DNA of 64,000 nt from Clavelina lepadiformis (Eukaryota; Chordata; Ascidiacea; Aplousobranchia; Clavelinidae), in the NCBI RefSeq assembly GCF_947623445.1, contig NC_135245.1, positions 14,825,501 to 14,889,500 of the forward strand, given 5' to 3'. A program made the position numbers and the translations under genes. This document shows positions 1-39,244 of this stretch, one piece after another. The first letter of the stretch is position 1. Each line of letters starts with the position of its first letter. The notes beneath the pieces were generated by a model. That model ran no database searches. It saw nothing but the letters and a program-made list of their open reading frames with translations, and had not been told where the DNA came from.

Positions 1-269
1 AGTATAAAAACTTATTGTGGATTTAAAGTATCCAGCAATCAGCATGATAAATTGAAGATAAAAAGTAAATTTATTATTCTCCTCGTTAGTCTCCCTACTT
101 CCACAATTTTGGTCAGCTTCATTACTTTACATACACCTCCTGTATATATGCACAATCTATTTTAAATGTGTTTGACATATCTTGCTGATGTTGTCAATTA
201 TAATTCTCTGTTCTACAGAGAGATGTGCACATTGGCTTATTCTACACTACTTTGTCTTTTGTTTTTAAG

Positions 270-3200
270 ACATGACTGTTGTTGAAGAATTTTTCGATGA
301 AAAAAGTAATTCCTCCTTGAGATCGGGCTTCAAAATTGATGATGAATCAATTACAATCCATTCAGCATACTTTGTTGGAGTTATTGAGTCTCAAGGTCAC
401 GAGGATGTAATCTCAAAAAGTCGCTTTGAAGATAATGAAGAACTAAGGTGATGTCACCATGACCTATTTGGAGCTCTAATGGTTACAGGGATTTTTCTTG
501 TGGTATTTTGATTTTCGTTGGCACTGGGCTTGCAAATGTGATACAAATAGTGCACTGTTTGCATTGTGTTGTTGCTGCACTGTGAATACCGCATGCTTCC
601 TGATCCTATACGATTAGGTTTCACATCATTCTTTGAACTGTGACATGGCAATCAATTGAGCAACCTGCCAACATGACAACATTATGTTTTAATAAAATAA
701 CATATTTCCTGTGAAACACACAATAAGTGTGCATATATTTACGAGTTAACGTTGTGATCGTGTTTAGGTATTCCTTGCGATCTGTTGAGAAATATGCACC
801 GTGGGTCAGGCACATTTTCATTGTTACAAATGGCCAAATTCCATACTGGCTCAATATGGATTCACCATATATAACACTTGTATGATTAATACCAAGTAGT
901 TTTATGAATTAAAAACCATTAAACTGAGCAGTATTCCAGGCTATTCCAGTCACATTAAAAGTTTGAGTGATAAAGAACTTCTTTATAAATTATTGCTGCA
1001 TGTTGCATGTATTTATGTAGTAGTCTATAAAGATTTTTTTCTGTTATTCTTGTTGACTTAGGTCACACATGAGGATATATTTGTCAATAAAAGTCATCTT
1101 CCAACGTTCAGTTCACCAGCCATTGAGGCTCACTTACACAGAATACCTGGTTTAGCTGATAAGTTCATTTATTTCAATGATGACGTTATGTTTGGAAAAG
1201 AGGTATTTGACTACATTTTGAGAAAATATTAGAAGTTCGGGATTTTGTATATTGCATTTTAGTAATTAATATAACATATTTAGTAAATTTTGCAAAGAGC
1301 ATATGCAGAAAATGTTGCTTTATGTGATTTAGGTTTGGCCAGATGATTTTTACACACATTCATCAGGGCAAAAAGTGTACCTAACATGGCCAGTACCAAA
1401 TTGTGCTGAGGGTTGCGCTCCATCCTGGATAACCGATGGCTACTGTGATACTGTCTGCAATGTGTCTGAATGCAACTGGGATGGTGGCGACTGCACAGGT
1501 AGTCGTCCATTTATTTTTAAACTGCTCTGATAGTCTGTCCAATTAACTAAGCAATTTATGCAAATTCATAAAGTTTTGTTTTGGTGACTACTGTATTCTA
1601 TGTTATTAGACATAGACTGAGTAATGTTTTTTTAGGTCCCAACGTTAAAGCTGGTGTTGGCATGAGCAACAATTTTGGAAACAATTGGCAGCCATCATTT
1701 GGGTCCTATTGCAGACCAGGTTGTTCCACCGCCTGGCTAGCTGACAAGTTTTGTGATCAGGTGAAGCATCTGTTTAACTTCGAATTTTATTTGTAATTTA
1801 AATTATATTCAGCTTCATATCACAACAATGAAGTATCACTGTGAAAATTGCTTTCTTTATTGTCTACGCTTTAGCAAGGCGCTTCGAGTGGGAATGTATG
1901 ATTAATTGCTTAGTACAGGGGTGTGCAACCTTTTGTACAAGAGGGCCAGATCCCAACAACTGGTTGAAACCGCGGGCCACACCTTTAATTAACATACACG
2001 TAGTTAAAAGCACAAAATCAATAACAGTGGTGGTTAAGACTGTTACAAGGTGCTAGTTGTACTTTAGCTACTGTATCTCTCAGACTATTTACTAATTGCT
2101 TAACCTTCAATTGCCCTTTCTTACTTATTTAACAGCGTCTACATTTTCCTTGAAATGCTAACTGCTCAGCAATTGACATCTTTGTGAATTGCGTTCTTGC
2201 TTTGCACAAGCTAGCCGTTAGGCCCTAATCGTCTGTCTGTGACGCAACAATACCCTAACGGTTAGGGTATTGTTGCGTCACACACATTCAGCCAAGGTTT
2301 GATTCAGCACTGCAAGGGGATTGGAATTGATTGCACATAGCAGACTAAACTAAATTAAAACTCGTTTCACGGGCCGCACACCGTTCAAAATTGTCACTTC
2401 TCCGCGGGCCGCATATTTTTCCTTTGCGGGCCGCATTTGGCCCGCGGGCCGCGGGTTGCACACCCCTGGCTTAGTACATAACTTACACGGCAATAAGTGG
2501 AATTTGTGAAAAAATTCATCTAATGACTTAGTTCACATATCAGTTCTGAAGTGTATTCAATATATTGTTGTTCTTTTTCCATTGTATTTTTATGATATTG
2601 TTTTTTGTGATGTTCTTATTCCTTTACTGAAAGTAATATGCATGCCTATAACAAGTTTATTTTTTACTATTAATTGTATGTACGATTAGTTGTCCATTGT
2701 TTAGCAGTTATTAACATTTATCAGGCTTGTAATACACATGAATGTGGATTTGATGCTGGGGATTGTGGATTAGCCAATTATGAGAAAGTATACAAACTTG
2801 CCTCAAAACTTAAGAATGGAACAACATACCACCTGCCACCAGGAAAGCTTGTTGGATATGTGGAAATATCAAAAGTATCGCTTTGTAGTACATATGCATA
2901 TAGGTGTTATTACCAAAAATATTCAGGCAGTGCGTAAGGATTCTGAAAATTTTCCTGACAGTCCGAGGATAAAGATTATGATGTCGTACCAGTGCGTGAT
3001 TTAGACAGAAATCCTGATACTGCAAGGGTTTTTCAAGCACTGCCTGTACTATAGGCAACGACACCTTTGCATATGCATGTTTTCAACACTTTTTTAAACT
3101 AAAGCCAATGATGACTTATTTATTATACTTGTGTGACAGCTTTTACAGGTTATATTTTATCTATATGCTTGTTTATGTTTAAATGACTTATGCTTACTTC

Positions 3201-6200
3201 CTTTTTTCCTTAAATGAAAATTTTTGTAGACATTTGAAAAGGTTACTGCAGCAAGTTTTGATAGCAATGAACATATTCGCATGGCAGCTGTTTCTAACAA
3301 ATTCCATGTCATCACTATCGTATTTAATGCTGATGGAAATCAAACTGAGGTGGATATAATTTGTAACTATTGCTGCATTAGCAACGGGAACATATTTTTA
3401 AATATTGTAAAGATATATTTTTATATATTCCCATTATAAACTTGTGCTTCATAATGTTATGTATCAAATTGGAATATTGATGATAAATTAAACAACAACA
3501 GCTACACTTTTGTGTTGCATGGTGTTTGATTCTTTTAGTTAAGTTATTAAAATCTTTGCATAGAATAAATTACATATGAATTGTGCAGATTGCATTTAAT
3601 GTTACTGGAATCCCATCCAATAACTCCAAAGAGTCTTTAAATAAGAAAGGTGACAGTGAAGTCACAATCTTCATGCAGTTTAAAGTGACAGCATTCCCTT
3701 CACAAAATGACACAAATGATGCAGACAATAATCACAAAGAAGATCAACAAAGTGAGGAGGAAAAGGATCATGACACTGACGTGAAAGTAGAAACAGAACG
3801 AGAAGAAACATTTTTTAAATCTAAAGATAACCTTCCTGAAGCCATTTTTGTTGATATTTCCGAAGATATGAAAAGGCCATCAACACAAAGAACACAAAAG
3901 TTGCCAAATAGAGAACTACCGTTTTCACTTGACAATTTAAACATTACAATACTACCTAAAGATGTTCAAGAACAATTTTTGGCATTGGAAGAAGAATACC
4001 GAAAAGAATATTTAACGGAACAGGGTTACAAATTTCGTTTGTATGAGTTTTTGTACCCTTATTTTAAGTTACTGTCTGACCACCAAAACTCTACGTCCAT
4101 CGTTTTGCTTGAAAATAAATTGAAAGACAAAAAAACAAAAATACATGATGTGGGAAAACAAGGTAACACAGGTGATTCTTTGAAAAAAAACAAAGAAAGT
4201 GATTTCGAAGGCGAAAATGATCACTTCCATTTTAAAGGTGATCAAGGGATTGTTGAAACTGCGCAAAATGAAACTCAACAACAAGGCTTTTTAAGGTAAT
4301 TATGTGTCTTTTTCTAACCTTTCATTAATCGTTTTTACCTTGATGATAACTTGACTTTTGAAACTTTTTTTAGAAACGATATTCCACATATTAATGAAAG
4401 CAAGTTAAAGGAAGTTGCAAAACAAGAGAATGTGGAAAAGTGAGTTTATTTTCCTACAAATGTGCAATTTAATTTTGTTTAGAACTAGTCTGCTAAATAA
4501 TGACTGGCTTTATTTACCCTTCAAGGGAAGAGTTTCAGGGTTAAAACAAATTTCTCTCTTTTATTTGAACTTTACACATATAAAAAGTCTTTTTATTAAA
4601 TACACCTATCATTAAATTTATTATGTGACCTGGCAAAACCTTCAGTAAAACAAATTTGTTAATACTTCAATTTAGTTTAAATTTGATTTGGCAGAAACTA
4701 AAATTTTATGTTTTAGAAGCAACAAGACAGGTGGTGGTTTTGTGTCACGAAATGTTCTTTCTTTGAAAAGCGCTCTCCTTGGGCAACCATCTAATTATGG
4801 GTTTCTTCCTTGGGAACATGATAAAAAAATTCAACATGACATAAAACGAATTGAAGATCGACAAAAAGTAGAAAATGAGTAAGTTTGTTTAAACAAAATT
4901 ACTGCACTGAAAGTTGATCTTTCATCTTTTTAATTAATTTGTTTCTTATCAAGTTACAAAACAACATTTAAAAAACGAAAGTTACTTGACACATTTGGAG
5001 ATTCATTGCGATTTGTCAGTGGAATTTTCAACAAAAGATTTGGTTTTACGCAACGAAAAGTTCCAGCACACATGCCTCATTTTATTGATAAGTAGGCATT
5101 CTTCATTTCCAATCAATCAGCTTAATATTTGTAACTCATTTAAGTTTCGTGTTTGAGGCTGTCACCAGTACCTGAACCGTTTCTTTTTTTCACAGAAATA
5201 TTATGTATGAACTGCAGAACAAATTTCCTGAAGAATATGATTTGACATCTTCTCATCAATTTAGACATTCAAAGGTCAGTTATTGGCCCGGTGCCATGAG
5301 TTTAATTGATTTCATCCAGCATTCATGCTATTTGATATTATTTAACATGTAACATACATTGCAGGACATGCAATTTGCCTTCTCTTACTTTTATTACATA
5401 ATGAGTGAAAGGAAAAGCATGGACCTGGAGGAAATTTTTCTTGAATTTGATACCGATCTGTCTGGTGTTTTATCAGATCGTGAAATCAGGTGATTTTAAC
5501 ACAATTGCATTTAAAAAAACAACCGTAAAATATTTTCTTCAGCGGGAGTTGTTACAGTAGTCCTGTGACATAAATTTCGTATTTTAGGTTGTTTGCAACA
5601 AAAATATTTTCACTTCCGCTGACATTAGAAGAGCTGACATCAGTTGAAGCTGAATTGAAAAGATGTGCATGGGAATTGTACGGCTCATCCACGGTAAAAA
5701 CCGAGATCTAGGATTTAAAATTTTAATTTATTAAAAACGTAGCATCCCTTGTAGACTTGACACTGTTCATCAACATTTAAACTTCATAACTACGAGTTTC
5801 CCATTGAACCAAATGTTATTTTATTGCTGAACATACGCCACGTTGTAACCAGCTTGAATTTAACCAATCAAAATGTTTCTAGAATACCTCTGAAAGCGGA
5901 AATGCTACGTACCAAGGATACACTCAACCTACTAATGGGCTGGCTGATTGGGCAGTAACAGAAAAATATTATGCATCCGACATGCCTCTGGTCACAAAAG
6001 AATTGATGTTTAATTGTACATTTATAATGGAACATCTCAATAAAACTTACTCTGACATAAAGAAGTACAAGTTCCAAGTAATATTTCTTTCAATGCTATT
6101 CTTGTGGGGCCCATTTTATTTCATTGAATATTTTTTTGCAAATATCAAGTTTCAAGTTACTAAACTTGTCTGCAAATGCTTATTGCTCTGAATACTTGCA

Positions 6201-6975
6201 GGAAGTTGACCAAAACGAAATTGCTTTCAAAATGATCCGCGACAACGTTTCGACTGTGGTTGGTCAACTTGATGACGTCAGAAAAAATCCGAAGAAATTC
6301 ATTTGCCTCAACGATAACATGAACCACAACCTTGAGTAAGTTGCATCAATTCGTTAGGTCAGAATAAGAAGTAGCCTTTCGGAATCCCACAAGTTAGCAC
6401 CCGTTAAAGTTGGATGATGTTGAGTACGATTGTGGAGTGAGTAATAATTTTTTGATGGCAACCGAGTTTTCTTCGTGAAAAATATGTCTTTGTCTCATGA
6501 TAACAGTTCCAATGCTACTCAATTTAAATCTTATATACCGCGTGATTAGGTTGAAAATGCGAAATGTAAGGAGTCTGTTTTTGCAATAAAAAAACACACG
6601 CCTTGTATAAAATACTCCATTAAGAAAGTGGAAGGACGATGTAATATAATTGTCGTTGATATTTTCAGACAAGCTGCCACAGTGAAAGCAGTTATTCGAG
6701 ACTTCTATGAAAGCTTGTTTCCCATTCAGTCAAAATTCGAGCTTCCTTACGAATACAGAAATAGATTCACAAACATCAATGAACTGCGTGAGTGGAAAAT
6801 ATCCCACCAACGGACACTTCATACATTGCACTTTATCCTGGGATGTCTGTTTTTTTCCATGATTATTTCTTTTTTCTGGGATCACATCTTCAAACAATGG
6901 CGAAGACACCGACATAAAATCTTCAGAACGTTTTCTAAATACTTTCGAAATAATCGAAAAAGCAGCCCGGTCTAG
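270..6975 (+). CDS. GNPTAB: GlcNAc-1-phosphotransferase alpha/beta subunit precursor, 3' part (5' end outside window)
   Basis: Transfers GlcNAc-1-phosphate to mannose on lysosomal enzymes in the cis-Golgi, the first step of the mannose-6-phosphate tag. Seventeen exons are visible: 270-447, 768-879, 1062-1202, 1333-1498, 1636-1760, 2725-2874, 3230-3349, 3589-4295, 4374-4439, 4717-4878, 4954-5091, 5196-5274, 5365-5489, 5588-5693, 5883-6077, 6202-6335, 6669-6975. All phases agree and give 1002 residues. Seen in order: Stealth CR2 ([18 protein letters not shown], then YFNDDVMFG); two six-cysteine LNR/Notch repeats; an acidic spacer with a DMAP1-binding-like helix ([16 protein letters not shown], near 3950-4065); a possible S1P site; Stealth CR3 ([16 protein letters not shown]); an EF-hand loop ([12 protein letters not shown]); CR4; and a C-terminal membrane segment. 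Human GNPTAB is 1256 aa, so roughly the first quarter, with the signal anchor and CR1, lies upstream. Identification is firm; the first exon boundary is inferred. Confidence 0.95.
1916..2468. mobile_element. hAT-type non-autonomous element (553 bp) in GNPTAB intron
   Basis: Terminal inverted repeats CAGGGGTGTGCAACC / GGTTGCACACCCCTG are flanked by a perfect 8-bp target-site duplication gcttagta (1908-1915 and 2469-2476), the hAT hallmark. The subterminal zones carry several GGGCCGC motifs. No transposase ORF is present. A 45-bp perfect palindrome lies inside at 2238-2282. The element sits in the intron that splits the second LNR repeat of GNPTAB. Confidence 0.93.
2238..2282. repeat. 45-bp perfect palindrome (22-nt arms, 1-nt loop)
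   Basis: Arm 2238-2259 (TGTGACGCAACAATACCCTAAC) is the exact reverse complement of 2261-2282, with a single G between. Pairing stops at the next base on each side. It lies in the middle of the hAT element at 1916-2468. Confidence 0.95.
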
Positions 6976-8508
6976 CTGCAACTCGTGGAATAAATGCAGC
7001 TTTTGTTGTTATAAAGCAATGAGCTTGTTGCTAGCGACAAATTAGATGCTGAAACGACTAATTTTGTGGAGATGTTAAATTAGAGGACTTAGCCCAAACG
7101 TTGCCTTCACACTTCTCAGCACTTACTAGGCATTGCTCATAAACTTGATGTTTTGTGAGATACTGACTGCTACATTACACGATCACCCTTTCGGAAATAT
7201 TTTTTATTGTTTTTATTATAAATATCAGGGGCAATTTACCAAATGACCATTCTGAACATCGGCAACAACAAACGGCTTTTGGTCGATATAGTTGCTTTTC
7301 AATATTCTGGCTCGTACGTTTAATGATTTAACTTGCGCAAAGCATCGATTGTTCGAATTACTTTCATGCTCGTTATGATCTGAGGTACATTACTTTTAGA
7401 CTAGTCTTGTGTAATTTATTTACTGTATTTTTCTTTGTGTAATTCATAATGCTATGCCTTCATTGCCGGGATATTCAAGTAGTTAGCAGGGATTTGGCAA
7501 ACCCATTGTTTGTCTTCATGAGAGTAGTTTGCCTTGCACAATTGCACGATTTCTTCCAAAGCTGCTAGTTAGTGCCATATATGCGCCAGCTATGTACAGT
7601 TTAGTGAAGATCATATTTCAACGTTTGCATTTATCCTGATTGCACCCGATTCGTCAAGGATTAGCCCATTGGGAAGGGAAAAGGGAACGCACGGATTAGC
7701 CATTCGTATGAGCTAACGGTAATAATGCCATCTTTTGAAGTAATCCTTGTAAGACTTATTATATGTCGTTACCTTATACTGCAATACCCTTGAGTTAATT
7801 TTGACTTCGACATATACTGTAACAATCACGTAAGTTTCCATCCATTCTAGATTTTTCGCATCGCTGTATGTAAAGGCGCTCTTAGTTCAATCGTGAAGCA
7901 AATTATCCCGGCCGCATTATTACCAAAGTACATTTGTTATGCAACTCGTCCTTTATATGCAAATAAGTATCTTTTACAATTCGCTTTATCACGATCTGTG
8001 GTGCCGTCGTTTTACTGAAATTCAAATTCTCGACGTGTATATTGTAGTAGTATACCAATATCGACCACGTTAAATTTATTTTCAGTGTATTTTATTATAC
8101 AATGTAAGTCACTGTATGTTTAATCGACATGAAAGGGTAAAATTTTGATTCTGAACCTCAAACTGTTCGAAAACACTTTTTCAAAAGTTCCGATCGGAAA
8201 TCAAAATTAATTTTGGCAATATTGTGAAATCGTCGAGACAAAAAATTGCACAAAAATGTTGAATATAATATTGATAGTTTCCGAAGCGTTGGTACAGCTG
8301 TGTAACTGTTTCACGTTCTATTTTGTGAATGTAACTCGCCAATCATTGTGATAACTGTGATTCATGTGAACGATTGTTTTAAAGCGTTTTTCCTTCGATG
8401 GTGCGTTGTGAAAATGGTGATACGTGTGACACTGAATATAACAGTTGAACTAGTATCAAGTATTGGTGATCTGAATTTGAAAAGAATCAGACTTGAGTTG
8501 GTTTTAAA
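6976..8508. other. Intergenic: GNPTAB 3' flank and promoter side of the Stealth paralogue
   Basis: No ORF with coding character, RNA gene or delimitable repeat was seen. It should contain the GNPTAB 3' UTR and the promoter and 5' UTR of the downstream paralogue, whose first exon starts at 8509 or upstream. No convincing TATA box could be assigned. Confidence 0.5.
6989..6994 (+). terminator. AATAAA polyadenylation signal, GNPTAB
   Basis: Canonical AATAAA only 13 nt after the GNPTAB stop codon (6973-6975). It would give a very short 3' UTR; a longer UTR cannot be excluded. Confidence 0.4.
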
Positions 8509-11500
8509 ATGATAAAAACGCTAGTTCGACGTCGTCGAAAAACATGCTTTTTGTTTGCAATAATATTTGTTCTTTTCCAAATTACCGGGCAAGTCTTAAA
8601 GGTAAGTTTAGTCTATATATAGTTTTTGTAAGACTTTTTGGTCAGCCCGGTAGTGTTAAATTCTTAGTTATTTTGTAGTTAGATACTTAAAGCTTGTTGG
8701 CGATGTACTTGTTAATTTATGCATACGTTTTCTAGATTTAATGGCAGTGCTAAACCCTCTACGTTTTTCTACAATTGCGTATAAATTTAGTGCTGCGTTT
8801 TGCAAAACAAAATTTCTCTCCATCGTTATATGAAGCCTAGCACCATTTTAGTTGACACTTGCAAGTGTCAATGAAGCCTGTCCGTTTCTTTTCGTTCAGA
8901 GGTTGTTTGTGAGCGTATTTCTGCTTTCATCATACTGCACTATGGAAACTAAACTTTTCGCTCCCCACAGTAGTACAGTCAATAAGAAAAGATTCAAAAT
9001 ATTAAAAAGTAGCAAGTCCACAAAGTCTGTTAAAATTACTTTTAACAATGTTTTCCACAAACACACGCAGACCTTTAAACCTCGTGAATTTCATTTTCGT
9101 TCCTCGTTTCAGCTGCAAAGCTCGCGACAGTCTACTAAAGCGATCAAAACTAATCGCAGTCATAAAAGGAAATCATCAGAACTATATGATTTGGTGTATA
9201 CTTGGGTGAACGGATCTGATCCTGATTTTAAAACTTCCTTAAAAACTACCCTCCAACAAACGATTGGTTACCAGACACCGAGAATTTCAGAATTTCAAGA
9301 TTATGATCAATTAAAGTAAGGAGAAGTTAATAGTTGTCTTCCAAACGGTTGTTGGACAAGCCTAAGATAAACTTTACTTCTTTGTATGTAACCACAGGTA
9401 TTCGCTAAGGTCTGTTACCCTTCACTGTTCTTGGATACGAAATATCTATATCGTAACCAACGGACAAGTTCCCGTTTGGTTAAACACGAGTAACACAATG
9501 ATTCAGTTGGTAAGCAAACTTTGAACTAAGCCTCAACCTCAATTTTTGTGTTACGTAATCCACACTAACACGCTTTACCTAATATTTTTGAGGTAAAACA
9601 TTCCGAAATATTTCAAGAGCGCAACCATCTGCCAACTTTCAACTCCGCCGCAATTGAAGTCCATATACACAAAATCAACGGCCTCACTGCCAACTTTCTC
9701 TACTTTAACGATGATTTTTTGCTTGGAGCTAAGGTAAGTAAAGTAATATAACTGCCTATAAATCACTACTACTCAGAGAAGTTTTTCGCTTTTAGATTAC
9801 ACCTGAAGACTTCATGGCTTCAACTCATGAGTACAAAGTTTATCTGGCCGGTCGACTTCCATCCCTAACTAAACAGTTAGTTCCAAAACAAGCGAAAATA
9901 AAAGTCAAGTTCAAGGGTGAAGAAGCCGAAAGGGAACGGTGATCTTTGCGAATAATGTTAAAGGAGCCCTAGGTTATATGTTGAAATTTTTGCAATTTCC
10001 ATGGATTTGCTGGGCTCTCACCAATGTTCCCTCTAAGCTGCGCGCGTGCGCAAATGCGCACTGCTGACACGGTCTCCGCGCACAGAAAATCTGTGCTGCG
10101 CACAAGAAAAAAATTCAACCTGAATTGAAAATAAAATAAACACATAATAATGGCCACAGTGCGCACGTGGCTCGTCTGATGTTGCTCACAGTGGTCCAAG
10201 GCACCGCTGAGGGAGTTAGTGTGTTTGCTCAGACTCGTGAAAAATTAGAGGGAACATTGGCTCTCACGTAATGGTTGAAAAATGTGTTAGACCAATCAGA
10301 GGCCAGCATGGTCGGTGTTGCTTTTCAATGCAAATATTACCCTAGTAAATGGCTCGTTAAAAACTTCCAGGTCGCAAGTTCAGGGTAGCCTTAATCGTTG
10401 ACGAAAATTGACGTTTTTGGCCCAAAATTGCAGTCTTGACTTTAACATTCTATTGCAAGAGCTAAGGATATCTAATTTAATAAGTTTTTCATGAAATAAT
10501 AGCCCAAGCCATATAAAAGTGACAAACAAAATTTTGTAATAAAATAAACAAACAAATTAGGCCTTTTACAAGCATATACGGCGCCTTAAAGAAGAAATCT
10601 TGGTAAATAATATGTTTAATATCACGTAAAACTGGGTTTCAGCGAGACCAAAAAGGACCCTGATCCTATTGAAGCTTACACTGAATCTCTACACCACGTA
10701 GCCCACATCTTTCAAGTATATTTCCAAGTTGAGGTCCAACGTCAAATTGCACATATACCGTACATGCTTAACAAGTGAGTACTATTGCTTGGACATAAGC
10801 TGTTGACTTTATACTTCAATCATGCAACGAACATTTGAGTCAATTATTGAAAAGTCCATCACAATTGCGCAACTTTTAGAATACTTCAAAAGATATATTA
10901 TATAGACTGTAAATCACATGTTAATGTACAGAAATATAGTGCGAAAATTACAACTGGATTTTGGTCTATTCTTCGAGCGAACTTCTTCCCATCGCTTTAG
11001 ACATGTTTCCGACACTCCACTTGCTTTTGCTTACTTCAACTACCTGCAATATGCTCAAGACCACAACAATCCATACAATATCAAAGTATGTTTGTTCTTT
11101 TTCACTTATACTGGCTCTAGAGTGTTTTTAAGCAAAGAAACTTGAATTTTTTGCAGATTGTTTCTGGTGAATCTTCGAGTGTTCATGTATCGCTATCAAA
11201 TGATGACAAACAAAACGGCAAAGCTTTTGAGACAATACAAAGGAAACCTCCCAAGTTCATTTGCATCAACGATAACCTGGATTATAGAAGGTAATGAGAG
11301 AATTAAGTTGTTGGGTGTGCTTCCGGTGTAACGTGATAACATGCCAATTACTTCTACCATCTTTATATAAAATAAAGCTTACATTGACACTAAACAATGA
11401 ACATTACAGTGTAGTATAATCTACAGTACTTCCTAATGACTATAATCTTTGCCTTATTAGTATACAATATATATTACATTTGCAAATAGAACTCTTCGTC

Positions 11501-11614
11501 TAAAACTTTCTTCTTTTTGCATTTAGCAGAGATACTCAGCAGGTACTTACATCCTTGAGATACTTTTATGAGAAGATGTATCCTGACCCATCTCCTTTTG
11601 AAGTCCGTCAATGA
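8509..11614 (+). CDS. Minimal Stealth-domain phosphotransferase, tandem paralogue of GNPTAB
   Basis: Predicted type II Golgi-membrane sugar-phosphate transferase; the substrate is unknown. Nine exons: 8509-8601, 8900-9315, 9398-9509, 9593-9733, 9796-9938, 10643-10774, 10932-11085, 11157-11290, 11527-11614; 470 residues. Exon 1 encodes a basic N-terminus (RRRRK) followed by a hydrophobic signal anchor (CFLFAIIFVLFQI). Then come Stealth CR1 (YDLVYTWVNGSDPDF), CR2 (KYSLRSVTLHCSWIRNIYIV, YFNDDFLLG), CR3 (SHRFRHVSDTPLAFAYFNYL) and CR4 (KFICINDNLD, then VLTSLRYFYEKMYPDPSPFE). Compared with GNPTAB it lacks the LNR repeats, DMAP1-binding domain, S1P site, EF-hand and C-terminal membrane segment. At least four intron positions and phases match its neighbour, so it arose by DNA duplication, not retroposition. 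A small insert carries the 10022-10259 hAT element in an intron. Confidence 0.88.
10022..10259. mobile_element. hAT-type MITE, CAATGTTCCC family, copy 1
   Basis: Termini CAATGTTCCCTCTAA / TTAGAGGGAACATTG form an inverted repeat. They are flanked by a perfect 8-bp duplication gctctcac (10014-10021 and 10260-10267). 238 bp, no coding capacity. Near-identical to the element at 19200-19436. It lies in an intron of the Stealth paralogue. Confidence 0.93.
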
Positions 11615-12113
11615 CAGATTTCATTCACAAATACCTTCCACATTGGCCTGATTATCAAGTTAGCTGTACAGAAGTCTAAAGTTCAAATCTGCAAAATATG
11701 GATTTGTTAAAGAAACCAATATTTTGCACCACAAGATTTTACTACTACTGCAACAAGCAAGTAGATTGCAGGCAAGCACCGATTGTTTCAGGTAATAACT
11801 GCTCCATTTAACTTCAAAAGCACTGACAATACAGTAACTGAAAGCCAATTGAGCACATACCACACGACTTTTGAATAAATTCTAAAAAAGCGGCGTTACG
11901 CAAATCTCAATTTTGGATCAATGGACACATTACCAGTCGCATTTTGGGTTAAACTGTTTTTGTTTTGAAATGCTATTTAATTTCTCAATATAGTATGTGT
12001 CAGCAAAACAATTACTGCATTAAAGAATTTATTATTACAGTACTCAAGTGATAAATGGACCTGGATATATTGTGTGACGTTACTGACTGCATAAAAATAG
12101 TATGTCCATCCTT

Positions 12114-12119
12114 AATAAA
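12114..12119 (+). terminator. AATAAA polyadenylation signal, Stealth paralogue
   Basis: Canonical AATAAA about 500 nt after the stop at 11612-11614, with no closer canonical signal noticed. The gene converges here with the RRM gene on the other strand. Confidence 0.5.
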
Positions 12120-12474
12120 GCTAAAATGATCACCTTTCGAAGCCGTCACAAGTTCCGCTTCCGATGACTGCGTCGCATTTCACAAAACGTGCCGTTTCAA
12201 TTTGTAATCTTTCACTACACTTCTTGATTTGCGACCGTTTGCCCGAATGTGAAAACAAAGTAAAAATCTGCACACTTGTACAACGAGTGAATTTATGTTA
12301 GTAGGACAACTTGGTGAAAAGTAATCCATTAAACAATTAACCCTTGATGCTGCTGTAATATAACTTGAATGTTTCAAATTATTGGATTTTTTATCATATG
12401 CGCTGAACCAATGCACATGGTTTGTAATAATTCCATTGACAGCATTTAATGACAATGACCATTCTGGGCACATT

Positions 12475-12480
12475 TTTATT
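12475..12480 (-). terminator. AATAAA polyadenylation signal, RRM gene
   Basis: TTTATT on the plus strand is AATAAA on the minus strand, about 400 nt beyond the stop at 12874-12876. It would leave roughly 350 bp between the convergent 3' ends. Confidence 0.5.
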
Positions 12481-12873
12481 AAAAAAGCGAGTCGTTATAC
12501 AGAGACCATTAAGCTGTAAGTAAATTTATGAAAATTCACGGCGTAGCAGTTTGGCGTGATAGAAATTTCAAACAAGTTTGTGCTAACATTTTTTTAAAAA
12601 CATTGGATGTCTTGAATTGAACATCACAAACAAAAAACAACAAAAACGTAAAAGCCACTAACGGTAAACTTATTTACAAAAACCTGTGAGAAAACTAATA
12701 CCACTGCGTTACCGATGCACTAAATAGTTTCATGTCAGCTCTGAAAAGGTTTACAATCTACGAAATGCTTAAAAGCATCTGTATGTACAAACTTAACTAG
12801 AACTGCCCGCACTGGGCTGTGGCAAAATACCATCCCTGTTTTGTAATGCACTAAAACTTGTCCTTGCATGTTT

Positions 12874-15800
12874 TTAATATTCATTGGCACGCGAAGCATA
12901 TAGATCATCATAACCGTGTGAAGATACAGGTGGCTTTGTGTCAATATATGAATCCAATGGTCCAGCACCACGGATGCTGCCACCACCAACTGACGATGCC
13001 ACAGCCGCCGCACGCCGGGCAATAAGGGCCCTTGTCAGGGCACTTGAAGTGGTGGTTGAACCAGCTGTTGGTAAATTACGCCCAAGAACAGATGATGTAG
13101 GTGGTACTGGCAAACGTGCCTTAACTAAAGCACGTTCTCGCAAAAGTCGCAAGTATTCCGGAGGTGGCAGGGGAAGATTGAAAGGATCAGGACAAGAAAT
13201 GAGTCTACGCTCATATGGATCTAGCGCTTCCAATCGACGACGGCGATCAAGGAGATCTAACAACTCCATTCGGTCTTTGGCGGGCGGGGGCAATTTCCCT
13301 TCAAACCCAGAGTCCCCATTGGAATTAAACCCACGATCAGGGCCTCCATTACCTCTGTCATGATCATTGAAACCCCTTCCACCAAATTCACCAAAGCGAC
13401 CACCGCCTCTACCCATTACACCTCCTCTACCACCTCGCATCGGTGGCATAAAACCTCCCCGCATACCTCCGCGCCCACCCTCTGGTTTATTTTGATTTTT
13501 CGACATCTGCACTTTTAAAGAGGCCCCCTTATAATTATACCCATTGAGGCCGTGAATAGCAGCATCTGCGGCAAGATCTTCTATGTGGACAAACGCAATT
13601 TTGCGTTCTTCAACAACATCGCACTCAGCAACGTAACCATAGCGTTCGAAAAGATGGCGCAGTTCCGTCGATCGACAATTGTCTGGTAAGTTTGCAATAT
13701 GCAATTTTGTGCAACCCGCCCTTCGGGCAGACTTTGCATCGGCGGAATTATCAGCCATACCTGAAAAACCACCTCCAAAAGCCCCTCTCATACCACCTCT
13801 CATTGATCCACGTCCAAAGCCACCACTGGGTCCTCCTCCTCCTCCACTAAAAACCAAAATACATGCATTTCAATTATCAAAATCCAAAATATATGTATCC
13901 TGAATATCCTCACTGCCAGTTGGGCCTAAACAAGACATACAGCCTCAACAATAGCATCGTAAGTATGTGTTGTGATCCTTGTAATTATGAGCAACTACCC
14001 ACCGGCCTCCACGAAAACCACTGCGTGATCCACTTTTGCTTTTTTCAACATTTATCATTAACCCTTTTACTTCTCTTTTATCCAAGTTTCTACAAAAAAA
14101 TAAGATTGCATATTAAATAAAAATTATAATACTGGAAGTGGAGAACAGAAAGTGGACTAGCAATTTTAAAGCAATAGCCTATCGTCCCAAAATGTATTTT
14201 ATCGGTAACTTGACCATGAACATAATGATCAAACATTATAATTTTGCAATACAGCACCACAAACATCAACTAGGCCTAACCGCCTAACCTATATAGGAAA
14301 GTTTGCAGTATCTAGCTTGTCACAATGTGTAAATTTTAGTTAAATCTGAAGCAATACCTGAACACAGTTTCACCAAAAAATTGAGCCCTCTATCATACAA
14401 AACCAACAACCTTCCCTGTGATTTCTACTTAGAAATAGCCAAATTAGAACTTTACGTCCTTGCGAATGTGAAATCAGTGATTCAAACTCAAAGCAAAAAA
14501 CATAGGTAAGGAGAACAAACAATCAAACATAAATAGACCAATAAGTGTAGAGTACACAAAATCAATTTTGAGTAAAGTCACAGCAAATACAACAATGATG
14601 GCCATTTTGGCCAACACCACCAATACTGTAAAATAGCATACACAAAAAGATAGGCTATTTACCCCTAATCTGCAGCTCCACCCTATTGTAAAATTCCTGC
14701 TAGTAACAAATAATGATGTTCAACTCATGTGAATTTGTCATGTCTATTACAATACAGATAATTCTATCAAATACTTTATTTTTAAACAGATATGCACCAA
14801 TAAAATTCTCAAAGAAGAACAATCTATTGCATGCATAGGTGCCTATTTTTGAAAATATCTGTGGGGGAGGAGGAAAAAACGTTAATGGTATAAGGTCAGG
14901 GAATAGGTTGAAAGTAAATATTTGAAGTAAATGAATTCAATGGCTTTAAAATGTCAATTTGCAAACCACTACATGACAACACTATACCTTCAAAAGCTAA
15001 ACATGACAATTTGATTTAGGTCTAAACCAGGGATGTCCAACCTTTTATTATAGTGGGCCGCATTGTCAATTGAAATAATTCAATGGGCCGCAGAACCTAT
15101 TAAATTTCAAGAAAAATGGGTGCATAAAGTACATACTCTGAGTGAAAATGACTAGCGGGCCGCACAAAAAACTCAGGCGGGCCGCACTGTGGCTCACGGG
15201 CCGCAGGTTGGACATCCCTGGTCTAAACTGTCTTCATTTAGCCATATAAGCCAGGAACATACTTGCATTGTCTGTCTTATGATGTTTAAAACGATCAAAT
15301 ATGATATCATGAAATGCATTGTTTGTTCCAATCTGCTTTGCTAATACAGTAATTTTACAACTGTTTATTACACGCTTCGCTTGTTACAGTTAGTCACATC
15401 CAGTAAATTTTTAAAACGTTGAAGTCACATTTTTCTGTAACTCTCAACATCCAGCATTCATCTGCAAATGAATACTCAAGGCAAAATTAAAAATGCCACA
15501 ATGTATATTACATGGAATTATATAGCTAACATAATACCTCTCCATTAAATTATAGTATCACATAACAAGATTTACCATTATTGCAGGATTCTGAAGCGGA
15601 GTACCAGAATTAGGCTTGTATGTACTGTAGTATGGCTAACGCTAATTGTATAGTAAAACTGTTTAACAAAGAACTTTTAAAGTGTCATGTTCATGATGAG
15701 CATAATCAACCAGCCCAACACAAGTTGTTTCTTGAACAGTTGGGGGGAAAAAAGAAAATATTTCTTTTGCACTAAACCAGCGTGGTCCAACTGCAGGCCC

Positions 15801-36877: not shown

Positions 36878-39244
36878 ATGAAACGAATCAGAATACAAGG
36901 TGTAGCTGGTATCAGCCCGAACCAAAATCCAACTGTTAACGTGGGTAAGTAAAGGTATGAAACACTAAATACATTGCCTTTGCAGTGTTGTCATGTTCCT
37001 ATTTTTTTTTAATTGGTGATGATGATTTAATAAAATAATAATCAATCTTTTTACATTTGTACTTGCAGTGCAACGGCCACCAGGCATTGTTAATCCGGTG
37101 ACAATTCATCCATCCAGTATGCGCATGCAGCGACCTCCACAACAACAGCAGCAACCATCCGCCCAACCGGAACCATATGATCCCATTGCTCAAGTGAAAG
37201 TAATTCTTCCACAATTAAAAGAATCGTTAGTTGTAAGTATTTTTTAGTTTGTTGTGGCAAGATTGTCTTATATGTGATATAAACTTTTTACACTCCCGCC
37301 CATCATACTAAAATTGGTGCACAAAACATTTAGGTAATTTGCCTAATCTCTGGAAAGCTTTAAAGGGGAAAAACAGAAGCTCAAACAGTAATAATTATTT
37401 AGCATTAAGTTATTACTAAAACGCTTTCAAACTGTTAATAATAATTAATGCAATCAAAAGTGGGAAAGTAAACTTCGTAAAGCCTAAAGCAGATTTCATA
37501 GACTTTTGTTACATATCCATCTAATGAAGTTCACCCGCAGAGTTTATCAAAACTAATGTTAAACTATCCGGATATCAGTTAACCGATTAAAATATTAAAT
37601 AAGGCTATTTTAACTATTTCATGATATTATTTATTTCAGCTATTATTATTATTGATAAGAAGATTGATTATTAATATCATTGCTACTATTATTATAGCTA
37701 TTTTCTGATATCTGAATAAAATTATGTTGGTTAACGAAATTCAAAAATAAACTAAAAAAACACAAAACTATATAGACCTTAAGAATTTGTGGATTTTTTG
37801 TTAACATCTGTTTTTACAATCAACATGTTTTTTACTAGAAGTCAAGGTAATAATCATTCAATCATTTTTTTTGTAAAAATTGCGGTGGGGACGAAAAAAT
37901 CAAGCCAATTGTTATTATCATGTGCTAATCAGCTGGAATAATGTTAAGACCTGCTAAAAAATAATTAAGGTAATAAATGTTGGTAACAAAAACTTCAACA
38001 CGCACGGCCACTAAACCCATAAAAAGGTTGCTTTATGCTTACCGTTTATTATCTGGATAGCTACAGCTAATACAAACATTCAGATATATTTGTTATGTGG
38101 ATAATAAATATTATTGATATTCGAACTAACCACAATGAAAACGTTGGCAAAATTTGAATTTAATTTTTCATCAGTTTTATAGCAAACATTGTATACTTTC
38201 ACATGTTTTAACCTCCTCCATGAAACTCTACTGTATGTATATCTAAAATTTTCTTTCAAGAGATTCATTTCATTTCAAAAGATTTTAGATAGAGCATATT
38301 TCCGGTTTGTTATATTTCATTTTGCAGAACTTAATGACTGTTGGAAGCAAGAATTTTGCAGGTAACAGGGCAGTTGATGATATGCAGTAAGTGAAGATAT
38401 GTGTGGTCGGATTTATCTGGTATACCCCAACCCAGGGGCGGGCAACATACGGCCCGCGACGGGATTTTGAGCGGCCCGCAGACAGTTTCCGGTCTAACAT
38501 GATAATGTGGCCTGCGGCCAAATTCTGCCGCAATCCCTGTATTGCGTCACTAAATAAGTCCAAGTTTGCCAACCTGAGAAAGATGGCCATGAATCTACTT
38601 GTTCTGTTCGGGTCTACATACATTTGTGAGCAAACATTTTCGACCATGAATATTAATAAGACAAAGCTGCGTTCCAAACTATTCATGAATCCGGCCCGCC
38701 AAGTACTTTATTTTCTCATATCAGGCCCGACGACCGAAGAAGTTGCCCGCCCCTGCCCTAACCTATTTAGGAATTATATTGTGTAATTAATCCATTAATG
38801 CAATGTACAGTACATGATATATAACATTATTAACATTGATGGCAAACATCCAAAAACACAGGAAAGGATTGGATAGCAGCAACATACCTCCTTTTAACAA
38901 ATGCTTGGAAAACTTCTACACTTTGTGTGATCAGCTTGAAATTCAACTAAACCTTGGCCAACAACAGCTTTCTCAAACTTTAGTTGGCATACACAACACT
39001 CCTCTTATGACTGGTAGCATAAAGTCAGATGTCAAAGACCCTCAGGTACTGAGACAGTATAATCTGGTAATTGCTTGTTGCGTTTGTTGGATATTTCCAC
39101 TAATAGGAGATCTTTTTCTAGGTTTATGCAAATTACGTGAATATTGTTGAGAATCAGGTTCGCTGTACAAAGGAGATCCATGAACTTTTAGCAAATTGTT
39201 GTAGAACATTATCTGAGCAACAGGTGAAATATCCAACTGGTTGA
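36878..39244 (+). CDS. MED29: Mediator complex subunit 29
   Basis: Tail-module subunit of Mediator (intersex homologue), nuclear co-activator of RNA polymerase II. Five exons: 36878-36944, 37069-37232, 38328-38386, 38862-39066, 39122-39244; 205 residues (human about 200). Residues 1-60 are proline/glutamine-rich. The conserved core starts with DPIAQVKVILPQLKESLV and continues FNKCLENFYTLCDQLEI, closely matching human IPQLKESL and FDKCLEEFYALCDQLEL. The C-terminus (QVRCTKEIHELLANCC) parallels human QIACAKDIHTALLDCA. Intron 3 carries the hAT element 38433-38755. Intron 4 is only 55 nt. The start is the first ATG in frame with the conserved core. Confidence 0.92.
38433..38755 (+). mobile_element. 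hAT-type deletion derivative (323 bp) with transposase C-terminal remnant
   Basis: Termini CAGGGGCGGGCAAC / GTTGCCCGCCCCTG. The flanking duplication is ccccaacc (38425-38432) against ccctaacc (38756-38763), one mismatch. Its interior encodes LLVLFGSTYICEQTFSTMNI followed by NKTKLRSKL, the hAT dimerisation core. It is therefore an internally deleted copy of an autonomous element that keeps the end of the transposase gene next to its right terminus. It lies in MED29 intron 3. Confidence 0.93.

Follow-up and report, generated by a model that had tools for sequence, protein, structure and literature searches.

The window analysed here, 64,000 nucleotides of chromosome 6 of the ascidian Clavelina lepadiformis (NC_135245.1, positions 14,825,501 to 14,889,500), holds a full-length GNPTAB gene followed in tandem, on the same (+) strand, by a short gene whose product consists of a predicted signal anchor and the four conserved blocks (CR1–CR4) of the Stealth phosphotransferase family. 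By sequence, the membership of this short protein in the Stealth family stands despite a changed key residue, i.e., a glutamate in the position of the arginine that contacts the donor phosphate in human GNPTAB. We give an even chance to its being a working, uridine diphosphate (UDP)-sugar-dependent phosphotransferase with changed donor handling and no selectivity for lysosomal enzymes, and the pattern of conserved residues leads us to favour such an enzyme over a dead one.

Gene structure and domain content

The preliminary description had proposed a complete gene of 470 amino acids downstream of GNPTAB, and the gene model bears this out: nine exons (8509–11614, +) join into a single open frame without a stop, and all eight introns are bounded by GT...AG. 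Exon 1 (8509–8601, residues 1–31) encodes a basic N-terminus and the signal anchor; the proposal of such an anchor fits, because the hydropathy maximum of the protein lies in the 19-residue window beginning at residue 12 (residues 12–30, mean 2.1). Exon 2 (8900–9315) encodes a basic stem, CR1, and the beginning of CR2. A second plausible acceptor within it, at 9113, would give an in-frame form of 399 amino acids, and the acceptors at 8900 and 9113 both look good by eye. Exon 3 (9398–9509) is followed by exon 4 (9593–9733), which contains Glu-229 and the NDD motif (9707–9715), and by exon 5 (9796–9938), in which CR2 ends and a linker takes the place of the LNR/DMAP region. The linker continues into exon 6 (10643–10774), where CR3 starts and the alignment places the catalytic His-339 (10752–10754). 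Exon 7 (10932–11085) carries CR3 with Arg-369 (human Arg-986), the exons for the EF-hand and S4 being absent; exon 8 (11157–11290) carries a CINDN motif with Asn-435 (human Asn-1151), and exon 9 (11527–11614) the end of CR4 and the stop codon.

All four Stealth blocks were recovered in order and over the Pfam cut-off, as had been claimed: CR1 (residues 128–146 of the 470-residue form, 9188–9244, E 2.1e-8), CR2 (residues 163–265, 9293–9828, spanning introns 2–4, E 4.6e-41), CR3 (residues 338–385, 10749–11049, E 5.9e-12), and CR4 (residues 423–468, 11232–11605, E 3.4e-12). No other Pfam family matched the short protein at E ≤ 1, and the LNR and EF-hand parts of GNPTAB found no tblastn match (E ≤ 10) within positions 7000–12500, in keeping with the claim that the LNR, DMAP-binding, and EF-hand modules are missing. 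The chain ends two residues past CR4, leaving no C-terminal membrane helix, again as described. By alignment, nothing in the short protein corresponds to the GNPTAB region that holds the site-1-protease cleavage site, no motif search having been made.

What remains is compact. Along the landmarks W-R322-D408-H956-R986-N1151 (human numbering), the short protein has spacings of 28/85/90/29/65 residues, against medians of 30/85/64/29/57 in prokaryotic and viral relatives and 226/85/543/29/181 in GNPTAB. Only the D408–H956 interval (90 residues versus 62–68 in 81 prokaryotic and viral rows) departs from the prokaryotic and viral pattern, the others lying near it. Core identity is 39% to Clavelina GNPTAB (117/301), 41% to zebrafish GNPTAB (122/296), and 37% to the fly protein (111/301).

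The neighbour is a complete GNPTAB of 20 exons and 1262 amino acids. It begins approximately 3.5 kb before the window, with exons 1–3 at −3505 to −432, and its exons 4–20 occupy positions 1–6975 of the window (+; exon 4 from 270). In Pfam it exceeds the cut-off for CR1–CR4 and for the LNR family (two stretches), with DMAP-binding, S1 regulatory, and EF-hand matches below the cut-off; its best PDB match is human GNPTAB (E 6.6e-254), and its core is 73% identical to that of zebrafish (217/298). Since a full GNPTAB adjoins it, the short gene is a paralogue and not an orthologue of GNPTAB. Searches of the genome (209,060,895 bases, 95 contigs) with CR2 and CR4 gave four matches each, all inside exons of these two genes, so that no third Stealth gene was seen with these two queries. 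The two genes share a strand and lie only about 1.5 kb apart, as would be expected if the downstream exons belonged to alternative GNPTAB transcripts and did not form a separate gene. However, GNPTAB closes with a CR4, a hydrophobic C-terminal stretch, and a stop codon of its own, and the downstream gene begins independently, with a separate start and anchor and a full set of CR1–CR4, which makes this explanation highly improbable.

An intron skeleton shared with GNPTAB

On a core-only alignment, the short gene has six introns and GNPTAB seven. Five of the six coincide with GNPTAB introns exactly in position and phase (chance of five exact coincidences 2.5e-11, hypergeometric, 903 possible sites), and the sixth lies one codon away with equal phase; the preliminary description, which had noted several shared positions and phases, was thus correct. 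The intron after the N-terminal helix is in phase 0 in both genes, and three internal exons have equal lengths, namely 112 nt (exon 3 here, exon 5 of GNPTAB), 141 nt (exons 4 and 6), and 134 nt (exons 8 and 19), the intron phases agreeing as well for the first two pairs. The GNPTAB core intron at HSK|DMQF has no equivalent in the short gene, which in turn has an intron in the linker that is unmatched in GNPTAB. Most of S1, the segment from LNR to S3, and EF-hand/S4 are encoded in GNPTAB by exons or parts of exons that the short gene lacks. Because the core introns match in position and phase, we conclude that the two genes have a common origin.

That linker intron, intron 5, contains an element of about 240 bases with short inverted ends (10015–10265). 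Of 404 first-look candidates for further copies, 40 were scored, and at least 40 further places match nearly the whole element at 95–98% identity; it is thus a young, high-copy, probably non-autonomous DNA transposon.

Active-site residues

The short protein was aligned with Clavelina, zebrafish, and fly sequences, one viral-contig locus, and 80 prokaryotic loci, giving 85 rows. The prokaryotic loci are the best 80 of at least 518 confirmed relatives and are thus a biased sample; the two seed peptides of the scan did not include position 322, so the sample is not biased on that residue. Human numbering follows PMC11418123, supplemented by our own count along the chains. That paper gives five key residues for human GNPTAB (R322, D408, H956, R986, and N1151), a list that does not formally define the Stealth family, and reports that Arg-322 forms a salt bridge with the donor α-phosphate.

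Four of the five key residues are retained, the equivalents of D408, H956, R986, and N1151. The fifth, Arg-322, is replaced by Glu-162 (9290–9292), where 83 of the other 84 rows have Arg and one has His. The preliminary description had named missing catalytic residues as a sign of inactivity; such a loss is found at this one position and at none of the other four. The other 84 rows agree without exception at 24 columns; the short protein is intact at 23 of these, the sole change being from Glu-328 to Gln-168 (9308–9310; position by our count from the numbering of the paper). Both charge-altering replacements fall in the donor-phosphate loop, six residues apart. Two further positions, H959 (Tyr) and Q992 (Pro), are not unusual, since the same residues occur in 34/81 and 7/81 prokaryotic and viral rows, respectively. 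At columns conserved in at least 95% of rows, the short protein departs at 5 of 48, a number equalled or exceeded by just three rows among the other 84: L012 (6/50), L006 (6/49), and L031 (5/50). It thus sits at the divergent end of the family and not beyond it, which does not look like decay; in our reading, the protein is under constraint and its donor loop has been rebuilt.

As a separate observation, L031 is the only one of the 81 prokaryotic and viral rows with His at the position of Arg-322.

These same residues bear on whether the short protein is a pseudoenzyme, in which the exchange of Arg-322 for Glu has abolished transfer and the protein has been kept as a UDP-sugar sensor, a chaperone-like partner, or a regulator of GNPTAB. 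Arg-322 grips the α-phosphate of the donor, glutamate occupies its position in this protein only, and Glu-328, invariant elsewhere, has changed too. A long-dead enzyme should nevertheless have lost more of its invariant positions, and the catalytic His, the NDD motif, the CR3 Arg, and the CR4 Asn are all kept. We therefore attach a real but clearly minor probability to a pseudoenzyme, and hold a working enzyme that handles its donor differently to be the better reading. Several points weigh against the latter: (i) in the human enzyme, R322Q belongs to the mutations reported to lower activity significantly or to abolish it (PMC11418123), and compared with that mutation, the short protein goes so far as to reverse the charge; (ii) Q992L stands in the same list of activity-lowering mutations, and the short protein has Pro there; (iii) the EF-hand, missing here, forms part of the dimer in the human enzyme, where its mutations inactivate (PMC11418123); (iv) the prokaryotic rows that serve for comparison are themselves putative enzymes; and (v) it is speculation that Arg-159, near Glu-162, may take over the lost α-phosphate contact.

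Descent and age

The tree comprised 34 rows, i.e., the four animal sequences and 30 of the 81 loci (29 of them prokaryotic; 14 labelled actinobacterial, 16 labelled non-actinobacterial or unlabelled). In it the short protein joins the animal GNPTABs (support 97/88), with the prokaryotic rows outside the animal clade; the Stealth tree called for by the preliminary description thus groups it with GNPTAB and not with the prokaryotic proteins. A viral or prokaryotic origin is not favoured, given this grouping and the introns shared with GNPTAB. One scan of viral contigs, with 4 matched stretches, yielded a single relative (L006), and a second, with 95 matched stretches, yielded none. Separately, archaeal Stealth proteins (L007 and L008 from Methanothrix metagenome-assembled genomes and L066 from an uncultured archaeon) fall within the prokaryotic group that adjoins the animal proteins, and among the 81 prokaryotic and viral rows L007 is the most like the short protein (36%).

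Within the animal clade, the tree and the introns conflict. The introns would suit a tandem copy of the neighbour, made in the tunicate lineage, that lost S1, LNR/DMAP, and EF-hand/S4 and then evolved rapidly. Such a history, which is independent of function, accords with the exact core introns and the three internal exons of identical length, with the tandem position, and with a long branch (1.28). It also accords with an intron that follows codon 428 of human GNPTAB (c.1284+1, PMC13300730): both Clavelina genes lack an intron at that site and share one whose position corresponds to codon 414/415 (PMC5035076 places c.1212 within human exon 10). Against it, the tree places the short protein outside fly and chordate GNPTAB together (98/93). 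Constraining it to pair with Clavelina GNPTAB alone costs 17.3 log units and is rejected (p 0.009), whereas grouping it with the two chordates (cost 6.1, p 0.07) or with fly (6.2, p 0.055) is not.

A long-branch artefact was considered as the source of this placement and rejected. Thirty data sets were simulated under a history that pairs the short gene with its neighbour (LG+G4, 33 rows without L006, fast searches). In all of them the short gene fell inside the chordates (10 with Clavelina, 10 with zebrafish, and 10 at their base), and the observed placement was reached in 0/30; these simulations used one homogeneous model, which does not cover a site-specific shift in constraint. Site patterns, counted against eight near outgroup rows, gave 20 positions common to fly and chordates only, at 6 of which the short protein has the outgroup state; 3 positions are common to the short protein and chordates only, and 8 to the short protein and fly only. 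The residues it shares exclusively with Clavelina GNPTAB (3) are no more numerous than those shared exclusively with zebrafish (4), as would not be expected of a tunicate-lineage copy. At the DNA level, the two genes have 10 matches of 14–51 bases (E ≤ 1), the best being inverted (51 bases, 80%); these show no intron copied whole, and we take them to be, in all probability, repeats and coding pieces.

On balance, our expectation is split about evenly between an early split and a younger tandem copy in the tunicate lineage. The preliminary description had pictured a duplicated catalytic core freed from its recognition modules: a core without these modules is what we find, and its simple derivation from the neighbour is doubtful, being rejected as a sister relation in the tree, though favoured by the introns. 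The fuller proposal of an ancient paralogue, predating the split of arthropods and chordates and retained in tandem with GNPTAB in an ascidian, with a minimal prokaryote-like layout and a rebuilt donor-phosphate site, that makes a phosphodiester-linked sugar modification outside the mannose-6-phosphate (M6P) pathway, strikes us as rather unlikely when all its parts are taken together. An early split, if true, would mean that animals started out with two or more Stealth genes.

Possible role beside the mannose-6-phosphate pathway

From the features above we infer how a working short protein might act. It would be a type II membrane protein, presumably of the Golgi judging from its kinship and anchor, with a catalytic core of CR1–CR4 only. 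His-339 would serve as the base, the NDD motif and Asn-435 would hold metal and nucleotide, and Arg-369 would orient the substrates, so that a sugar-1-phosphate could be transferred to glycans or to acceptors of another kind, with no lysosomal selectivity. Handling of the donor would have to differ from that in GNPTAB, since the α-phosphate Arg has become Glu and the invariant Glu has become Gln.

The genome gives this protein a context. Matches to the uncovering enzyme (NAGPA) lie on contig C4 at 7.12–7.13 Mb (three matches), and CI-MPR-type repeats on C7 (seven matches); the main parts of the classical M6P pathway are therefore present, and GNPTAB can serve it. The γ subunit (GNPTG) was not found in genome searches with PRKCSH_1 and the DMAP-binding domain, which does not show that it is absent. 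The former gave two matches, L101 and L102, which by their family features look ERLEC1-like (by eye) and glucosidase II β-like, respectively; besides GNPTAB, the latter gave only one, of 21 residues, on C8. As an aside, the NAGPA locus (C4:7120266–7132667; L091, L092, and L093) apparently comprises two or more adjacent copies that have EGF-like repeats.

With GNPTAB, NAGPA, and CI-MPR-type repeats at hand, the short protein might be an accessory enzyme of the M6P pathway that adds N-acetylglucosamine (GlcNAc)-1-phosphate to lysosomal glycans alongside GNPTAB, all the more as a human core engineered to lack S1 and the segment from Notch to S3 is hyperactive and less selective and still tags lysosomal enzymes (PMC11418123). 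The short protein has, however, lost Arg-322 and lacks the LNR, DMAP, and EF-hand modules, GNPTG has not been detected, and the fly phosphotransferase, with one LNR and an EF-hand, transferred GlcNAc-1-phosphate to a simple sugar and tagged none of the hydrolases tested (PMC11418123). We thus consider an accessory M6P enzyme improbable. For a similar reason, a "simplified GNPT form", as put forward in the preliminary description, is unlikely in the sense of lysosomal tagging, with a full GNPTAB adjacent and no hydrolase tagged by the better-equipped fly homologue.

In our judgement, the likeliest role is that of a core-only paralogue acting on other glycans, because GNPTAB can serve the classical pathway and the fly enzyme left the tested hydrolases untagged. 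Phosphodiester modifications occur in non-vertebrates, e.g., GlcNAc-P-Ser in Dictyostelium, according to a review (PMC6994554) whose main text does not contain the words tunicate or ascidian. A search of the literature, judged by titles and the openings of abstracts, returned no report of a short Stealth paralogue in tunicates. With a full enzyme and its core-only sister in one animal, nature itself provides a test of what in GNPTAB confers specificity for lysosomal enzymes, and a Stealth core whose phosphate-gripping Arg has become Glu would represent either a chordate pseudoenzyme or new donor chemistry.

Other features of the window

An intron of GNPTAB contains a repeat-like, GGGCCGC-rich stretch at approximately 1917–2467, with ends that seem complementary by eye. 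Convergent with the short Stealth gene, an exon of an RNA-binding protein lies on the minus strand at 12874–13869, with one RRM (E 5.9e-8) and a Gly/Arg-rich region. At 38391–38786 (+), a fragment resembles the C-terminal dimerisation region of hAT transposases, its score of 21.2 bits falling slightly short of the Pfam cut-off (21.4 bits).

Comparison with known Stealth systems

Animal GNPTAB (human, zebrafish, and Clavelina) shares with the short protein the order of CR1–CR4, the N-terminal anchor, the intron skeleton, and four of the five key residues; unlike GNPTAB, the short protein is without the S1 regulatory domain, LNR, DMAP-binding domain, EF-hand/S4, and C-terminal helix, and carries Glu, Gln, Tyr, and Pro for Arg-322, Glu-328, His-959, and Gln-992. 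The fly phosphotransferase (FI02838p, 7dxi) resembles it as a single-chain, short animal Stealth protein with 37% core identity, but possesses one LNR and an EF-hand (PMC11418123) as well as Arg-322. The engineered human S1S3 construct (9bgg) is likewise a core relieved of S1 and of the segment from Notch to S3, though it keeps EF-hand/S4 and its catalytic residues and is hyperactive (same source). Prokaryotic Stealth proteins (80 loci; CpsY structure 8j2n) have the same minimal CR1–CR4 layout and spacing; the 29 in our tree nevertheless fall outside the animal clade, and 79 of the 80 have Arg at the equivalent of position 322.

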